Shown one piece after another: positions 11,891 to 63,835 of a DNA stretch of 64,000 nt. The notes beneath the pieces are model-generated. The model saw only the letters and a program-made list of their open reading frames with translations, had not been told where the DNA came from and made no database searches. How positions within the stretch are numbered: position 1 is the stretch's first letter; the number at the start of each line of letters is the position of its first letter. This DNA is from Aurantimonas aggregata (GTDB lineage Bacteria; Pseudomonadota; Alphaproteobacteria; Rhizobiales; Rhizobiaceae): the NCBI RefSeq assembly GCF_010500835.1, contig NZ_JAAAMJ010000003.1:186001-250000 (forward strand), in the 5' to 3' direction. The position numbers were made by a program, and so were the translations under genes.

Positions 11891-13819
<1,929 letters not shown>

Positions 13820-14147
13820 GAGCATTCTCCTTTGCGAGCGAGCCGCCCGGGACCCTCTAAGAGGCATTCCGCCAAGGGCGGCCCCCAGAATTCTTGGATA
13901 CACCGCCGGGCCAAAACCGTTGAACAATCAGGCTCTGCGGGGCTGGCGGCTATATATGAACCGGCATTTGGGCGCGCAAGGCGGACGGTCGCGGTTTCGT
14001 GAGCAGGCCCACAGCGATCGGCCCGAATCCCGGGAATGCGACAACGGTAGGGAACCGCAACCGTTCTCGTGCCCTTTACCGACCATATGATCCCAAAACG
14101 GGTGGCCAGGCCAGCCTGAGCGGGGTCCTCGCAACTGGAGTACCGTC
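13820..14147. other. divergent intergenic region dnaK / 24-residue peptide gene
   Basis: This 328-base gap holds the dnaK heat-shock promoter and leader on the minus strand and, at its right end, the ribosome site (GGAG) of the small peptide gene. I see no further gene. No CIRCE-type inverted repeat was found. Confidence 0.6.
13951..13980 (-). promoter_or_regulatory. heat-shock (sigma-32) promoter of dnaK
   Basis: On the minus strand, CTTG (13980-13977) is followed after 18 bases by CATATAT (13958-13952). This agrees with the alphaproteobacterial heat-shock consensus CTTG-N17/18-CnTATnT. It lies about 130 bases upstream of the dnaK start on the same strand. Confidence 0.75.
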
Positions 14148-14222
14148 ATGAACAGTATCATTTATATCGTCGGGCTGGTCGTCGTGGTCGCCATCGTGCT
14201 GTCGCTTATCGGCGTCCTCTGA
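14148..14222 (+). CDS. 24-residue single-helix membrane peptide
   Basis: Very short gene encoding 24 residues. After MNSIIYIVG the product is almost entirely one hydrophobic helix (runs of V, A, I and L). GGAG lies eight bases before the ATG and a hairpin follows the stop, so it looks like a complete small transcription unit. Similar tiny peptides starting with an IIYIVGLVV-like pattern are, from memory, widespread in rhizobia, but their function is not known. It could be a stress-related membrane peptide; a toxin of a type I system is an alternative. Confidence 0.65.
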   Translation: MNSIIYIVGLVVVVAIVLSLIGVL

Positions 14223-14255
14223 CGCACCGCGACGCTTCACCGATCACAACGTGAT

Positions 14256-14288
14256 TTTGGCCCTGCCGGTCCTGCCGGCGGGGCCAAA
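14256..14288. terminator. bidirectional terminator hairpin
   Basis: A 14-bp stem (TTTGGCCCTGCCGG, with one wobble pair) with a five-base loop lies between the 3' ends of the small peptide gene (plus) and the penicillin-binding protein gene (minus). T/A tracts border both sides, fitting termination in both directions. Confidence 0.65.
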
Positions 14289-14317
14289 TTGCGTCCGGCG
14301 CCAGATTTCATTCTTTC

Positions 14318-16570
14318 CTAGCCGCCGAAGATGCGACGGAACAGCGACTCGTCGCTTGATCTCCCGCCGCTACCGACGCGGCCCTCCACGGTCAGGCCCG
14401 GTGGTGGCGGACCGTCGCTGATGATCGCGCCGCGCGGGATGTCGCCCGGCGGCACCGGAGCGCCTCCCTGGCCATCGTAGTAATAGCCGCTGTCCGGCGA
14501 TGCCGGATCGTAGTAGCCGCCTTCGCCGTAGCCGCTGTCGGCCGTCAGCGGGGCTTCCTGTTCGCCGATGCGGTAATCGCCCGGCAGCGGCGTCGCCGGC
14601 AGACCTTCATGCGCGGCGACCATGAAGGCGTGCCAGGCCTGCGCCGGCAGCGTGCCGCCGGTGACCTTCTGCATGTTGGCGCCGTTGTCGTTGCCGAGCC
14701 AGACGCCGGTGATCAGATTGGCCGTGTAGCCGACGAACCAGGCATCCTTGAAATCCTGGGTCGTGCCGGTCTTGCCAGCGGCCTGCCAGCCCTCGATCGC
14801 GGCGCGCTGGCCGGTGCCGGCTGCCACGACCTGGGTCATCATCGCGTTCATCATCCCCACCACCTCGGCGGAAACGAGGATCGGCGGGACCTCGGCGCCG
14901 CGTTCCCACAGCACCTTGCCGTCCTCCGAGGTGACGCGGTTGACCAGATGCGGCGTCGCCCGGTAGCCGCCATTGGCGAACGGCGCGAAGGCGCCGGTCA
15001 GTTCCAGCAACGAAACTTCCGACGTGCCGAGCGCGATCGAGGCATTCTCGACCAGCGCCGACCCGATCCCCAGCCGGCTGGCCATCTCGATGACGGCCGG
15101 CGCGCCGACGGCCTCGACCAGCTTGGCGGCGACGGTGTTCAGCGACTGGCGCAGCGCGTCGGCGAGCGTAACCGGACCGCGGAAGCGGTTGTCGTAGTTC
15201 TGCGGCGACCAGTTGCCGATCTGGACCGGTCCGTCCTCGATCATCGTCTCCGGGCGCCAGCCTGCCTCGATCGCGGCGGCATAGACGAACGGCTTGAAGG
15301 TCGAGCCCGGCTGGCGCTTGGCATCCACGGCACGGTTGAACTGGCTCTGGGCGTAATCCCTCCCGCCGACCATGGCCCGGATCGCGCCGGTTCCGTCGAG
15401 GGCGACGAGCGCGCCCTGGCTGACATTCTGCTTGGCACCGTCGACGGTGGCGCGGATCGCCTTCTCGGCGGCCCGCTCGAGGCCGAGATCGATCGTCGTC
15501 TCGACGATCACGTCCTCCTTCACCTGCCCGACGAGGTCGAGGATATCGCGCATGACGACGTCGGCGGCGTAATGCTCGGCGCCGTTCCAGTAGCTGCGCG
15601 CGCTGGTCGGCTTCTGCGCCCTCGCATCGGCCAGCGCAACGTCGTCGATGAAGCCCGTCTCGCGCATCGCCGAAAGCACGACTTCGGCGCGGGCCTTGGC
15701 GGCCTCCGGGTCGCGAGCCGGGGACAGTCGCGAGGGCGCCTTGAGGAGGCCCGCGAGCAGTGCCGCCTCGGCGAGGTCGAGTTCGGACGCCGGCTTGTCG
15801 TAATAGCGTCCCGCCGCCGCCTCGATGCCGGTGGCGCCCGAGCCGAAATAGACCCGGTTGAGATACATCTCGAGGATCTGGTCCTTGGTGAACTGGTGCT
15901 CCAGCCAGAGCGCCAGCACCGCCTCCTGGAGCTTGCGCTCCATGGACTGCTCGGGGCTGAGGAAGATGTTCTTCGCTAGCTGCTGGGTCAGCGTCGAGCC
16001 CCCCTGCACGGTCTCGCCGGCAGCCATGTTCTCGAAGAAGGCGCGGACGATGCCGACCGGGTCGATGCCGTAATGGTCGTAGAACCGCCGGTCCTCGATG
16101 GCGATCACCGCCTGGGGCACGTAGGGGCTGATCTCGTCGAGGGCGACGGCCTTGCCGCCGGTCAGGCCGCGATTAGCGAGGACCTCGCCAGCGACCGAGA
16201 CGATCTTGACGTTGGGCGGCCGGTCCGGGATCGCCCAGGCTTCCTGCGGCAGCTTGACGGCGACGTAGCCGACGAGGCCGGCGACGGCGAGGCCGCCGAC
16301 CATGCCGACGAGGACGAACAGGCGGAACAGGTGACCGATGAAGCTGCGCCGGCGCCGGCCGCCGCCTGCACCGCCGGAACCGGAGGAGCGGCCGCGGCGC
16401 GCGGCGTTCCGGCTGCCGGAAGCGGCGCCGGCCTTGGCGTTCTTGCGCGATGACTTGCGGCGAATGTCGTTGGCGGCGGGCGGCACGGCGCGGTCGTCGG
16501 CGCTGATCCGGAACTCGTCGTCGGCCGGCCCGGAAAAGGTCGGTTCGATTCGCTCGTGCCGTTTCGCAGC
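14318..16570 (-). CDS. class A penicillin-binding protein 1A family
   Basis: Bifunctional peptidoglycan transglycosylase/transpeptidase of about 750 residues. A basic cytoplasmic N-terminus is followed by one membrane helix (FRLFVLVGMVGGLAVAGLVG). The GT51 domain has the catalytic Glu in EDRRFYDHYGID and the QGGSTLTQQLAKN motif. The transpeptidase domain has STFK, SLN and KTGTT. The C-terminus is rich in Tyr, Gly and Pro. The start at 16570 is chosen because the family typically begins near MAxKRxxRIEP; an in-frame ATG at 16675 is an alternative. A CtrA-like box lies upstream. Confidence 0.92.
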   Translation of the reverse strand, partial: AAKRHERIEPTFSGPADDEFRISADDRAVPPAANDIRRKSSRKNAKAGAASGSRNAARRGRSSGSGGAGGGRRRRSFIGHLFRLFVLVGMVGGLAVAGLVGYVAVKLPQEAWAIPDRPPNVKIVSVAGEVLANRGLTGGKAVALDEISPYVPQAVIAIEDRRFYDHYGIDPVGIVRAFFENMAAGETVQGGSTLTQQLAKNIFLSPEQSMERKLQEAVLALWLEHQFTKDQILEMYLNRVYFGSGATGIEAAAGRYYDKPASELDLAEAALLAGLLKAPSRLSPARDPEAAKARAEVVLSAMRETGFIDDVALADARAQKPTSARSYWNGAEHYAADVVMRDILDLVGQVKEDVIVETTIDLGLERAAEKAIRATVDGAKQNVSQGALVALDGTGAIRAMVGGRDYAQSQFNRAVDAKRQPGSTFKPFVYAAAIEAGWRPETMIEDGPVQIGNWSPQNYDNRFRGPVTLADALRQSLNTVAAKLVEAVGAPAVIEMASRLGIGSALVENASIALGTSEVSLLELTGAFAPFANGGYRATPHLVNRVTSEDGKVLWERGAEVPPILVSAEVVGMMNAMMTQVVAAGTGQRAAIEGWQAAGKTGTTQDFKDAWFVGYTANLITGVWLGNDNGANMQKVTGGTLPAQAWHAFMVAAHEGLPATPLPGDYRIGEQEAPLTADSGYGEGGYYDPASPDSGYYYDGQGGAPVPPGDIPRGAIISDGPPPPGLTVEGRVGSGGRSSDESLFRRIFGG

Positions 16571-60856: not shown

Positions 60857-62311
60857 CTAACGCTCGATGCGGTCGATGAACCAGCGGGTGAGCCGGGTCC
60901 AGACCTCGTCCTTCTCCGCGGCGTCCTCGACGCCGTGCTCGAGATTGGGATTGTCGTTGATCTCGATGAGGAAGACGCCGTCGTCGGTCTCCTTGAGGTC
61001 GACGCCGTACAGCCCGTCGCCGATGCAGCGGGCGCCCTTGAGCCCCGCATCGAGGACGTGCGGCGGCGCGTCGGCGAGCTGGAACGCCCGGAAGCCGCCC
61101 TCCAGCGGCCGGCCGCCGGCCTCGTGGTTGATGATCTGCCAGTGCTCGCCGGCCATCAGATACTGCACGGCGAACAGCGGCTCGCCGCCGAGCACGCCGA
61201 TGCGCCAGTCGAAGCGCGTCGGCATGAATTTCTGCGCGATCAGGAGGTCGCTGTCCTCCAGCCAGGCATGCGCCAGCGCTTCCAGCCCGGCCTTGTCGTC
61301 GACCTTCTTGACGCCGCGCGAGAACGAGCCGTCGGGGATCTTCAGCACCATCGGGAAGCCGAGCAGGTCGGCCGCCCGCACCAGGTCCTCCTTGCCGCCG
61401 ATCATCACCGAGGGCGGCGTCGCAATGCCGTTCTGCGCCATCAGCTCGTTGCAATAGACCTTGTTGGTGCAGCGGATCATCGAGATCGGATCGTCGATGA
61501 CCGGCATTCCCTCCTGCATCGCGCGGCGGGCGAAGCGGTAGGTGTGGTTGGAGATCGACGTCGTCTCGCGGATGAACAGCGCATCGAAATTGGCCAGCCG
61601 CGGCAGCTCCTTGCGGGTGATCGGCTCGACATCGACCCCGAGCCGCCCGGCAATGCGGGCCCAGTGCTTGAGGCTGGCGACCGAGGAAGGCGGCAGCGTC
61701 TCCTTGGGATCGTAGAGCGTGGCGAAGGCGTATTTCGCCGGCGTCTTCGCCTTGGCCTCGCGCCATTCGCGCGCCGTGTGCTTCGCCATTGCCGCCAGCA
61801 GCCGCTCCGTCTGGCCGGCGTCCAGCTTGCCGATCGAGGCGAAGCCGATGCGCTTGATCGCCGGCCGTCCGGCCCTGGCTTCCAGGTGGATCTCCAGCGC
61901 CGGCGCGCGGAACCAGTCGAACACCAGCTTGGCGAAGCGCTCGAGGCGCGGATCCTCGCCATAGCCGAAATACACCCGGATCGGGGATTGCGGCAGCGGC
62001 GCGTCGCCCAGCGCCTTGCCGAGGACGGCGTCGAGCTCCGGCAGGGCGTTATCGTAGAGCTTCTTCTCCGACAGGTCGATCATCGTCTCGACCGAGGGAA
62101 TGATGCGGTGGCCGCGCGCCTCGGCGAGCAGCGAGGCATAGTAGCCGCGGCTCTGATAGGCGTAGGAGCGCGAGAGGTTGATGATCTTCGGCCGCTGGCC
62201 CTGGAACAGGCCGGGTCGCGCCAGATAGTCGCGACTCGTCATGATCTTGTGCGGCGTCAAGCCGTTGTCGAGGTCGGCAGCGCGGCCGACCAGAACCACC
62301 CATTGCGACAT
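60857..62311 (-). CDS. RimK-like ATP-grasp ligase with N-terminal RLAN domain
   Basis: Amide ligase-like protein of 484 residues. The N-terminal domain (about 1-260; VVLVGRAADLDNGLTPHKIMTSRDYL) corresponds to the RimK-like N-terminal extension. The ATP-grasp fold (about 270-480) includes FPMVLKIPDGSFSRGVKKV (Lys324), FDWRIGVLGG and the metal ligands EINDNPN (450-456). RimK relatives add amino acids to peptide or protein carboxyl ends. Its start is eight bases after the stop of the GNAT/C39 gene, so the two are one operon. The substrate is unknown. Confidence 0.86.
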   Translation of the reverse strand: MSQWVVLVGRAADLDNGLTPHKIMTSRDYLARPGLFQGQRPKIINLSRSYAYQSRGYYASLLAEARGHRIIPSVETMIDLSEKKLYDNALPELDAVLGKALGDAPLPQSPIRVYFGYGEDPRLERFAKLVFDWFRAPALEIHLEARAGRPAIKRIGFASIGKLDAGQTERLLAAMAKHTAREWREAKAKTPAKYAFATLYDPKETLPPSSVASLKHWARIAGRLGVDVEPITRKELPRLANFDALFIRETTSISNHTYRFARRAMQEGMPVIDDPISMIRCTNKVYCNELMAQNGIATPPSVMIGGKEDLVRAADLLGFPMVLKIPDGSFSRGVKKVDDKAGLEALAHAWLEDSDLLIAQKFMPTRFDWRIGVLGGEPLFAVQYLMAGEHWQIINHEAGGRPLEGGFRAFQLADAPPHVLDAGLKGARCIGDGLYGVDLKETDDGVFLIEINDNPNLEHGVEDAAEKDEVWTRLTRWFIDRIER

Positions 62312-62319
62312 GACGGAAC

Positions 62320-63471
62320 TCAGGCCTCGCGTCTGGAGAGGAAGACGGCCGCCCGAAGCCCCACCTTGCCGAAGCGGGCGATCCGGTCGAAGGTCTCGTA
62401 GGGGATCGGCAGGCTGGCCGCGTCGGCAGCCGTCTCGCCGCGTTCGTCGGCAACCCAGGGGTCGTGGATGACGATGTGGCGTCCGTCGTCGCCATGGGCG
62501 AGGACCCAGTGCGGCACCTTCTTGTCGAACATGTGGTAGCCGGAAATCAGCACCACCGCCGTCTTGCCGGCGGCGATCGCGGCGCGCAGGTCTACCAGGG
62601 TGAACGGCCGGATCAGCACCGGGATTGCGTAGGAAACGGCGCGGCGACGGAAATCCTCCTGGGCGAGCGCCATCACCACCTGCTTTTCGGCGCTGCGAAC
62701 GCTTTCCAGGAACAGGTCGCCCGGCTCCGAGACGTGGATCTCGGCATCGAGGCCAAATTCATGCGCCGCCACCGCCAGGCCGTAGGGGTCGCAGCCGCCC
62801 GGCCCCGACATCATGAAGACCGTCGTCGCCTCCCGCCAAAGCCGGATCTCGGTGACCGGCTCGAGCGGGAAGTCCGCCACGTCGCGCGCCATCGCCATCA
62901 TCAGGCAGCAGGCGCCGCAGGTGAAATCGGTGGTCTGGGCGTAGTAGGGAACGCCCGTATCGATCGCCGTCTCGCCGCGCAGCGTCTTCTCGAAGCGCAG
63001 CGCCGGGCTGTGGTCGGCGTAATAGTCGAGGCTCCGGCCGATCTTGCGGTAGCCGGCCGACCGGTAGAGCGACAGGGCACGGGCATTGTCCTCGCGCACT
63101 TCCAGCCTGAGGGCGATCCGGTCGCTCGCGTAGGCCGCCTTCTCGGCCGCCTCCAGCAGCGCCCGGCCGATGCCCTGCCCCGTCGCCCGCGGCGATACCG
63201 CCAGCGAATAGAGCCGGGCAAGGCCTGTGCCGCGCCGCAAGAGCAGCGCCGCATAGCCGGCGAATGGCGCGCCGGGGGCGGCCCCGGCCGTCTCGGCGAC
63301 GAGGAGAATGGCGCTGGATGCACTCACCAGCCGGCGGAAGGAGCGGCGGGATAGCCGGTCGGCGTCGAAGGCTTCGTTCTCGAGCCGCTCGAGCCGCTCG
63401 ATGTCGCCCTGGCCGGCACGCCTGAGGACGAGGTCGGCGACGGGCGAGGCGGGGCGGGCGGCGTGCGACAT
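62320..63471 (-). CDS. GNAT acetyltransferase fused to C39-like cysteine peptidase
   Basis: Two-domain protein of 383 residues. Residues about 13-162 are a GNAT domain with the acetyl-CoA loop PRATGQGIGRALL and SLYRSAGYRKIGR. Residues about 172-383 are a papain/C39-like peptidase: nucleophile Cys185 in TDFTCGACC, His321 in PHWVLAHG and Asp337 in IHDPW, with the mid-domain GPGGCDPYGLAVAAHEFG. It precedes the RimK-like gene in an operon. Comparative work, from memory, has noted such GNAT-peptidase proteins next to RimK-like ligases in peptide-modification contexts. Start chosen at ATG 63471; it has no strong ribosome site. Confidence 0.85.
   Translation of the reverse strand: MSHAARPASPVADLVLRRAGQGDIERLERLENEAFDADRLSRRSFRRLVSASSAILLVAETAGAAPGAPFAGYAALLLRRGTGLARLYSLAVSPRATGQGIGRALLEAAEKAAYASDRIALRLEVREDNARALSLYRSAGYRKIGRSLDYYADHSPALRFEKTLRGETAIDTGVPYYAQTTDFTCGACCLMMAMARDVADFPLEPVTEIRLWREATTVFMMSGPGGCDPYGLAVAAHEFGLDAEIHVSEPGDLFLESVRSAEKQVVMALAQEDFRRRAVSYAIPVLIRPFTLVDLRAAIAAGKTAVVLISGYHMFDKKVPHWVLAHGDDGRHIVIHDPWVADERGETAADAASLPIPYETFDRIARFGKVGLRAAVFLSRREA

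Positions 63472-63758: not shown

Positions 63759-63835
<77 letters not shown>

Follow-up and report, generated by a model that had tools for sequence, protein, structure and literature searches.

RimK modifies the C-terminus of ribosomal protein S6 and is opposed by the retropepsin RimB; RimI acetylates the N-terminus of ribosomal protein S18. RimK and the LysX/ArgX ligases add glutamate-type residues onto a carboxylate, and RimI and archaeal Ard1 are acetyltransferases acting on alpha-amines. RimK-like ligases with a linked protease are exemplified by the RimK/RimB and RloC/RloA pairs (PMC12239564). N-acetylglutaminylglutamine amide (NAGGN) is made by a GNAT and ATP-grasp protein, and a peptidase is encoded in the same operon (PMC8070244), which consists of genes for an AsnB-like amidotransferase, a GNAT-ATP-grasp fusion (TIGR03103) and an M42 peptidase (TIGR03106). 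GNAT proteins encoded beside other ATP-grasp ligases were proposed in 2015 to cap the ligated product (PMC4431377). Fusion of a GNAT domain to DUF3335 is stated in PMC10318531, which for the likely activity of the fusion refers to an amidoligase survey of 2009. We found no experimental function for the RLAN ligase family, or for its pair with the GNAT-DUF3335 protein, in the literature searched.

A pair of this kind is encoded on the minus strand of the 64,000-nucleotide stretch of Aurantimonas aggregata DNA analysed here (the window). The upstream gene (62320..63471) encodes a GNAT-DUF3335 fusion protein of 383 aa and the downstream one (60857..62311) an RLAN and RimK/LysX-like ATP-grasp ligase of 484 aa, both assigned from Pfam domains and AlphaFold models. 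The two are separated by 8 bases (62312..62319), a gap suggesting that they form a single transcription unit. This layout, with a ligase gene eight bases from a GNAT/C39-peptidase gene, was reported in the earlier note, and its coordinates and Pfam domains were confirmed. The upstream gene probably starts with the ATG at 63471; the resulting MSxA start is also found in the relatives L036 and L037. A longer, GTG-started frame reaching 63762 was considered unlikely because a tRNA-Arg gene (63759-63835) is located upstream on the opposite strand. The next genes of the window beside the pair encode a flavodoxin-fold reductase and a heavy-metal P-type ATPase, and neither an AsnB-like amidotransferase nor an M42 peptidase was found among these neighbours.

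The ligase combines in a single protein an RLAN domain (PF14401, residues 27-171, E 8e-42) and a RimK domain (PF08443, residues 282-459, E 3e-9). Its ATP-grasp residues are kept, K284, K324, D438 and E450 being invariant among relatives. The AlphaFold model (pLDDT 88.2, pTM 0.62) gave LysX/ArgX (5k2m, E 6e-18) and RimK (5zct, E 1.5e-17) as the top structural matches, and in the profile search Thermus LysX (3vpd) ranked first. In addition, the invariant H390-W391 of the ligase aligns with an 'HW' in Thermus LysX that RimK does not share. The score against the RimK family model TIGR00768 was 88.1 bits, under the curated cut-off of 143.4.

The GNAT region of the fusion protein spans approximately residues 14-164 (Acetyltransf_1, PF00583, residues 45-141, E 3e-13) and is followed by DUF3335, the 'Peptidase_C39 like family' (PF11814, residues 174-378, E 3e-76); the Peptidase_C39 model itself matches the latter domain weakly (E 0.018). 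By profile and fold, the closest relatives of the GNAT domain are the RimI/Ard1 N-terminal acetyltransferases, albeit with a score of 67.1 bits against the RimI model TIGR01575, below the curated cut-off of 86.4. The AlphaFold model of the whole protein (pLDDT 91.7, pTM 0.86) likewise matched RimI and archaeal Ard1 best. All of the structural matches listed fall on the GNAT half, so that the peptidase half has no independent placement by fold search. Judged by position and conservation, the predicted nucleophile of this half is Cys185 (codon at 62917..62919, minus strand), with His321 (62509..62511, minus strand) and Asp337 (62461..62463, minus strand) as the other catalytic residues and Gln179 standing six residues ahead of the cysteine. 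The intact Cys185-His321-Asp337 set named in the earlier note is thus present with exactly that numbering, and it is conserved across the family as well: in a 41-row alignment of family proteins no row departs from Gln179, Cys185 or His321, and at least 90% of rows have Asp at position 337, the only departure there being Glu, in four loci (L052, L054, L055 and L057). The DUF3335 domain is predicted to be a cysteine peptidase, with its catalytic residues in place.

In all of these respects the locus is a typical representative of a family pair already described. Its ligase carries RLAN and RimK domains together, a GNAT protein is encoded in the adjacent gene and is fused to DUF3335 as in most members, and the Gln-Cys-His-Asp set is kept. 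Comparison with the RLAN and GNAT-DUF3335 pairs of other Proteobacteria (Aurantimonas, Mesorhizobium and Azospirillum among them) revealed identical domains, order and adjacency, and nothing important differs.

The pair and the NAGGN operon are alike in grouping a peptidase with an ATP-grasp ligase and an acetyltransferase, and the product of the operon is a non-ribosomal N-acetyl dipeptide (PMC8070244). Unlike in that operon, however, the GNAT domain is fused to a cysteine peptidase rather than to the ligase, and the amidotransferase is missing. The GNAT protein scored 24.8 bits against TIGR03103, for which the cut-off is 569, and a pairwise comparison of the ligase with the genome's own NAGGN synthetase gave no significant match (E 0.15). 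This synthetase is complete-looking (L172:1117-2919, contig C3; 911 bits against TIGR03103) and is followed by an M42 peptidase (TIGR03106) running into the end of the locus, indicating that the organism has a separate pathway for the osmolyte dipeptide. Membership of the pair in the NAGGN system was ruled out by these scores and by the separate operon. In another genome (L052:796-10961), NAGGN amidotransferase and synthetase genes are found ∼4 kb from a GNAT-DUF3335 gene; it is this last gene that is followed by a DUF2817 gene, and its RLAN partner is encoded elsewhere in that genome.

The other described systems resemble the pair in part. RimK/RimB and RloC/RloA likewise join a RimK-like ligase to a linked protease, but here the protease is of another class, the ligase has an added RLAN domain and the RimB-family retropepsin (PF05618) has no match in the whole genome. 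A retropepsin partner was thus rejected for this locus, and among the PF05618 positions listed for the sampled genomes none matches that of RLAN. The LysX/ArgX ligases acting on amino-group carriers share with the present ligase the HW motif and provide its best structural match (5k2m), but they lack the RLAN domain, and no LysW-like carrier gene was seen near the ligase. RimI and Ard1 are closest to the GNAT domain, which differs from them in its sub-cut-off RimI score, its fusion to a peptidase and its ligase neighbour.

In order to follow the pair across genomes, two samples were used. Among 61 close genomes, most of them as distant as genus or family, RLAN was detected in 21 and DUF3335 in 17, and every one of the 17 carries both genes, adjacent to each other. 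In 319 genomes spread across the phylum of the window, RLAN was detected in 58, DUF3335 in 48 and both in 47, a co-occurrence with a Fisher p of 2e-44 that ignores relatedness, the 47 genomes spanning many families. Co-inheritance, on which the earlier note had staked its reading, is therefore borne out for DUF3335, which is accompanied by RLAN in 47 of 48 genomes and stands without it in one, while DUF3335 is wholly absent from 11 of the 58 RLAN genomes. Both genes are retained in relatives at 28–98% identity, which indicates that the pairing is not due to chance. The ligase, GNAT and C39 parts, each compared separately with four relatives of the same genus and family, all display dN well under dS. 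Constraint is strongest in the peptidase (dN 0.009 and dS 0.27 against relative L036, as compared to 0.069 and 0.36 for GNAT).

Two genomes of unusual content were also observed. The single phylum-sample genome with DUF3335 and no RLAN contains a lone DUF3335 without GNAT (L085:9120-9821), adjoining a gene that was identified by eye as dihydrolipoamide dehydrogenase-like. The other possesses two DUF3335 paralogues (L086:4633-5694 and 13689-14897), both far from RLAN and both with an N-terminal part unmatched by the GNAT query.

A different picture emerged when the loci were compared from the side of the ligase. Of the 139 loci with an RLAN ligase, 136 have a GNAT gene close to it; the peptidase is fused to the GNAT domain in 89 of these and absent in 47, proportions that do not equal population frequencies, since 80 of the 139 loci were picked by similarity to the window. 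In 114 of the 136 loci the GNAT gene precedes the ligase gene on the same strand; it is divergent in 19, and in three it follows the ligase gene in the same orientation. As the two remain neighbours despite this shuffling of order and strand, the ligase and the acetyltransferase probably act together. On the ligase tree the peptidase state changes 20 times, at least 16 of the changes being forced by well-supported branches; the exact number is soft, the tree having been built with FastTree and containing several long branches. The conserved core thus consists of the ligase and the acetyltransferase, to which the peptidase is an optional addition. Of the three-part operon proposed in the earlier note, the ligase and GNAT parts stand, whereas the protease can be dispensed with.

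No further gene could be added to this core. Clustering of small ORFs in 137 loci yielded none conserved across families within 2.5 kb: the clusters comprised antisense frames in the ligase gene, which formed the widest cluster, and ORFs of one syntenic Mesorhizobium/Nitratireductor group. The result is in line with the lack of an obvious substrate peptide gene remarked on before and extends it to the neighbourhoods of orthologues; it speaks against a ribosomal precursor encoded beside the pair but has no bearing on more distant ones. In the neighbourhoods compared, no third gene was common to the loci above background, and there was no conserved transporter or regulator, nor an ABC transporter consistently linked to the pair. 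A gene for DUF2817 (PF10994, a family assigned from the L052 member) lies a few kb or less from the pair in only four loci (L052:9792-10961, L054:12582-13715, L055:11225-12472 and L057:10848-12026) and is a possible further accessory gene. A distinct arrangement was found in Legionella adelaidensis (NZ_LR134436.1, L168:41-3232), where the RLAN ligase gene is followed by those for a GCS2-family ligase and an N-formylglutamate amidohydrolase, and GNAT is absent. Here the same ligase belongs to another operon, and this single case suggests substrates of the glutamate type. Neither of the two additional families was matched in any other locus searched; a query of only 60 residues from the Legionella-type GCS2 gave no match across 249 genomes, a result that carries no weight.

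We consider the locus best explained as a cytoplasmic unit that makes a short N-acetylated peptide without the ribosome and in which the peptidase serves in turnover or trimming, an explanation whose probability we put slightly short of even. In an ATP-dependent step, the RLAN/ATP-grasp enzyme would attach an amino acid, probably glutamate or another acidic one like it, to a carboxylate carried by a second amino acid or by a short peptide. The RimI/Ard1-like GNAT domain would then acetylate the alpha-amine, leaving the product capped, and the fused C39-like peptidase, where kept, would cleave this product or the precursor directly before it. Ligation of the glutamate type is supported by the proximity of the ligase to LysX/ArgX and RimK, and acetylation of an alpha-amine by that of the GNAT domain to RimI/Ard1. 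The two Legionella neighbours likewise place glutamate-type chemistry around the same ligase. The lack of a conserved small ORF within 2.5 kb fits a non-ribosomal product, and the dispensability of the peptidase fits turnover better than an obligatory maturation step. The NAGGN operon, in which a GNAT and ATP-grasp protein is the synthetase and a peptidase is also encoded, provides a precedent for this logic. Against the short-peptide reading we count that RimK and RimI, which are among the closest relatives, act on ribosomal proteins and not on free peptides; that the ligase, as judged from the pairwise comparison, does not significantly resemble the NAGGN synthetase of its own genome; that the Legionella link is one record; and that the surroundings of the pair show no conserved transporter or regulator. 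Action of the three predicted enzymes, from one transcription unit, on a peptide or a protein end, much as first proposed from the window, is still the best reading, with the protease as an optional part.

Modification of a protein end is the main alternative, though a rather unlikely one, in which the ligase would extend the C-terminus of a single target, the GNAT domain acetylate an N-terminus and the C39 domain remove the tag. It draws on the appearance of RimK and RimI/Ard1 among the nearest solved relatives of the parts, on the RimK/RimB precedent of a ligase with an opposing protease (PMC12239564) and on the absence of the PF05618 retropepsin from this genome, which leaves room for another protease. 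However, the genome encodes a separate RimI-like protein that scores better (84 vs 70 bits) and a separate RimK-family ligase that passes the TIGR00768 cut-off (160.3 bits), so that the ribosomal jobs look taken. Moreover, no conserved candidate target gene was found nearby, and tag removal cannot be an essential step when the peptidase is missing in 47 of 139 loci.

We regard as improbable a role in detoxification or amino-acid salvage, whereby the acetyltransferase would inactivate, and the ligase conjugate, a toxic amine or amino-acid analogue and the peptidase would recover amino acids. Secondary matches of the GNAT domain to resistance acetyltransferases and the patchy occurrence of the pair (RLAN in 21 of 61 close relatives) would agree with such a role, but N-terminal acetyltransferases are the best GNAT matches, with far better scores, and purifying selection over a broad phylogenetic range suits a more general metabolite. 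A graspetide-like ribosomal peptide, crosslinked or extended by the ligase, freed of its leader by the C39 domain and capped by GNAT, is very improbable: ATP-grasp ligases and C39 peptidases are both known in RiPP pathways (PMC8939145), but the small ORFs near the ligase are not conserved past one syntenic group in 137 loci, linkage to ABC transporters is inconsistent, and the C39 domain belongs to the separate, often missing family DUF3335, with a weak Peptidase_C39 match.

The description of the locus as 'under-described' in the earlier note is fair with respect to function, but the pair is already annotated in Pfam as RLAN and DUF3335; what may be new is its description as a core with an optional peptidase. 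Extending the short-peptide reading to the family, we would suggest, with considerable doubt, that around a fifth of the sampled genomes of the phylum make an N-acetylated peptide other than NAGGN, by means of a core of a RimK/LysX-like ligase and a RimI-like GNAT protein, to which many lineages add, or from which they drop, a fused cysteine peptidase setting turnover. The division into a ligase and GNAT core and an add-on peptidase gives a simple order of work: the product in a lineage free of the peptidase, before the role of the peptidase. With the RLAN ligase family present in 58 of 319 genomes of the phylum, the capped peptide, if the reading is true, would be a widespread metabolite still without a name.
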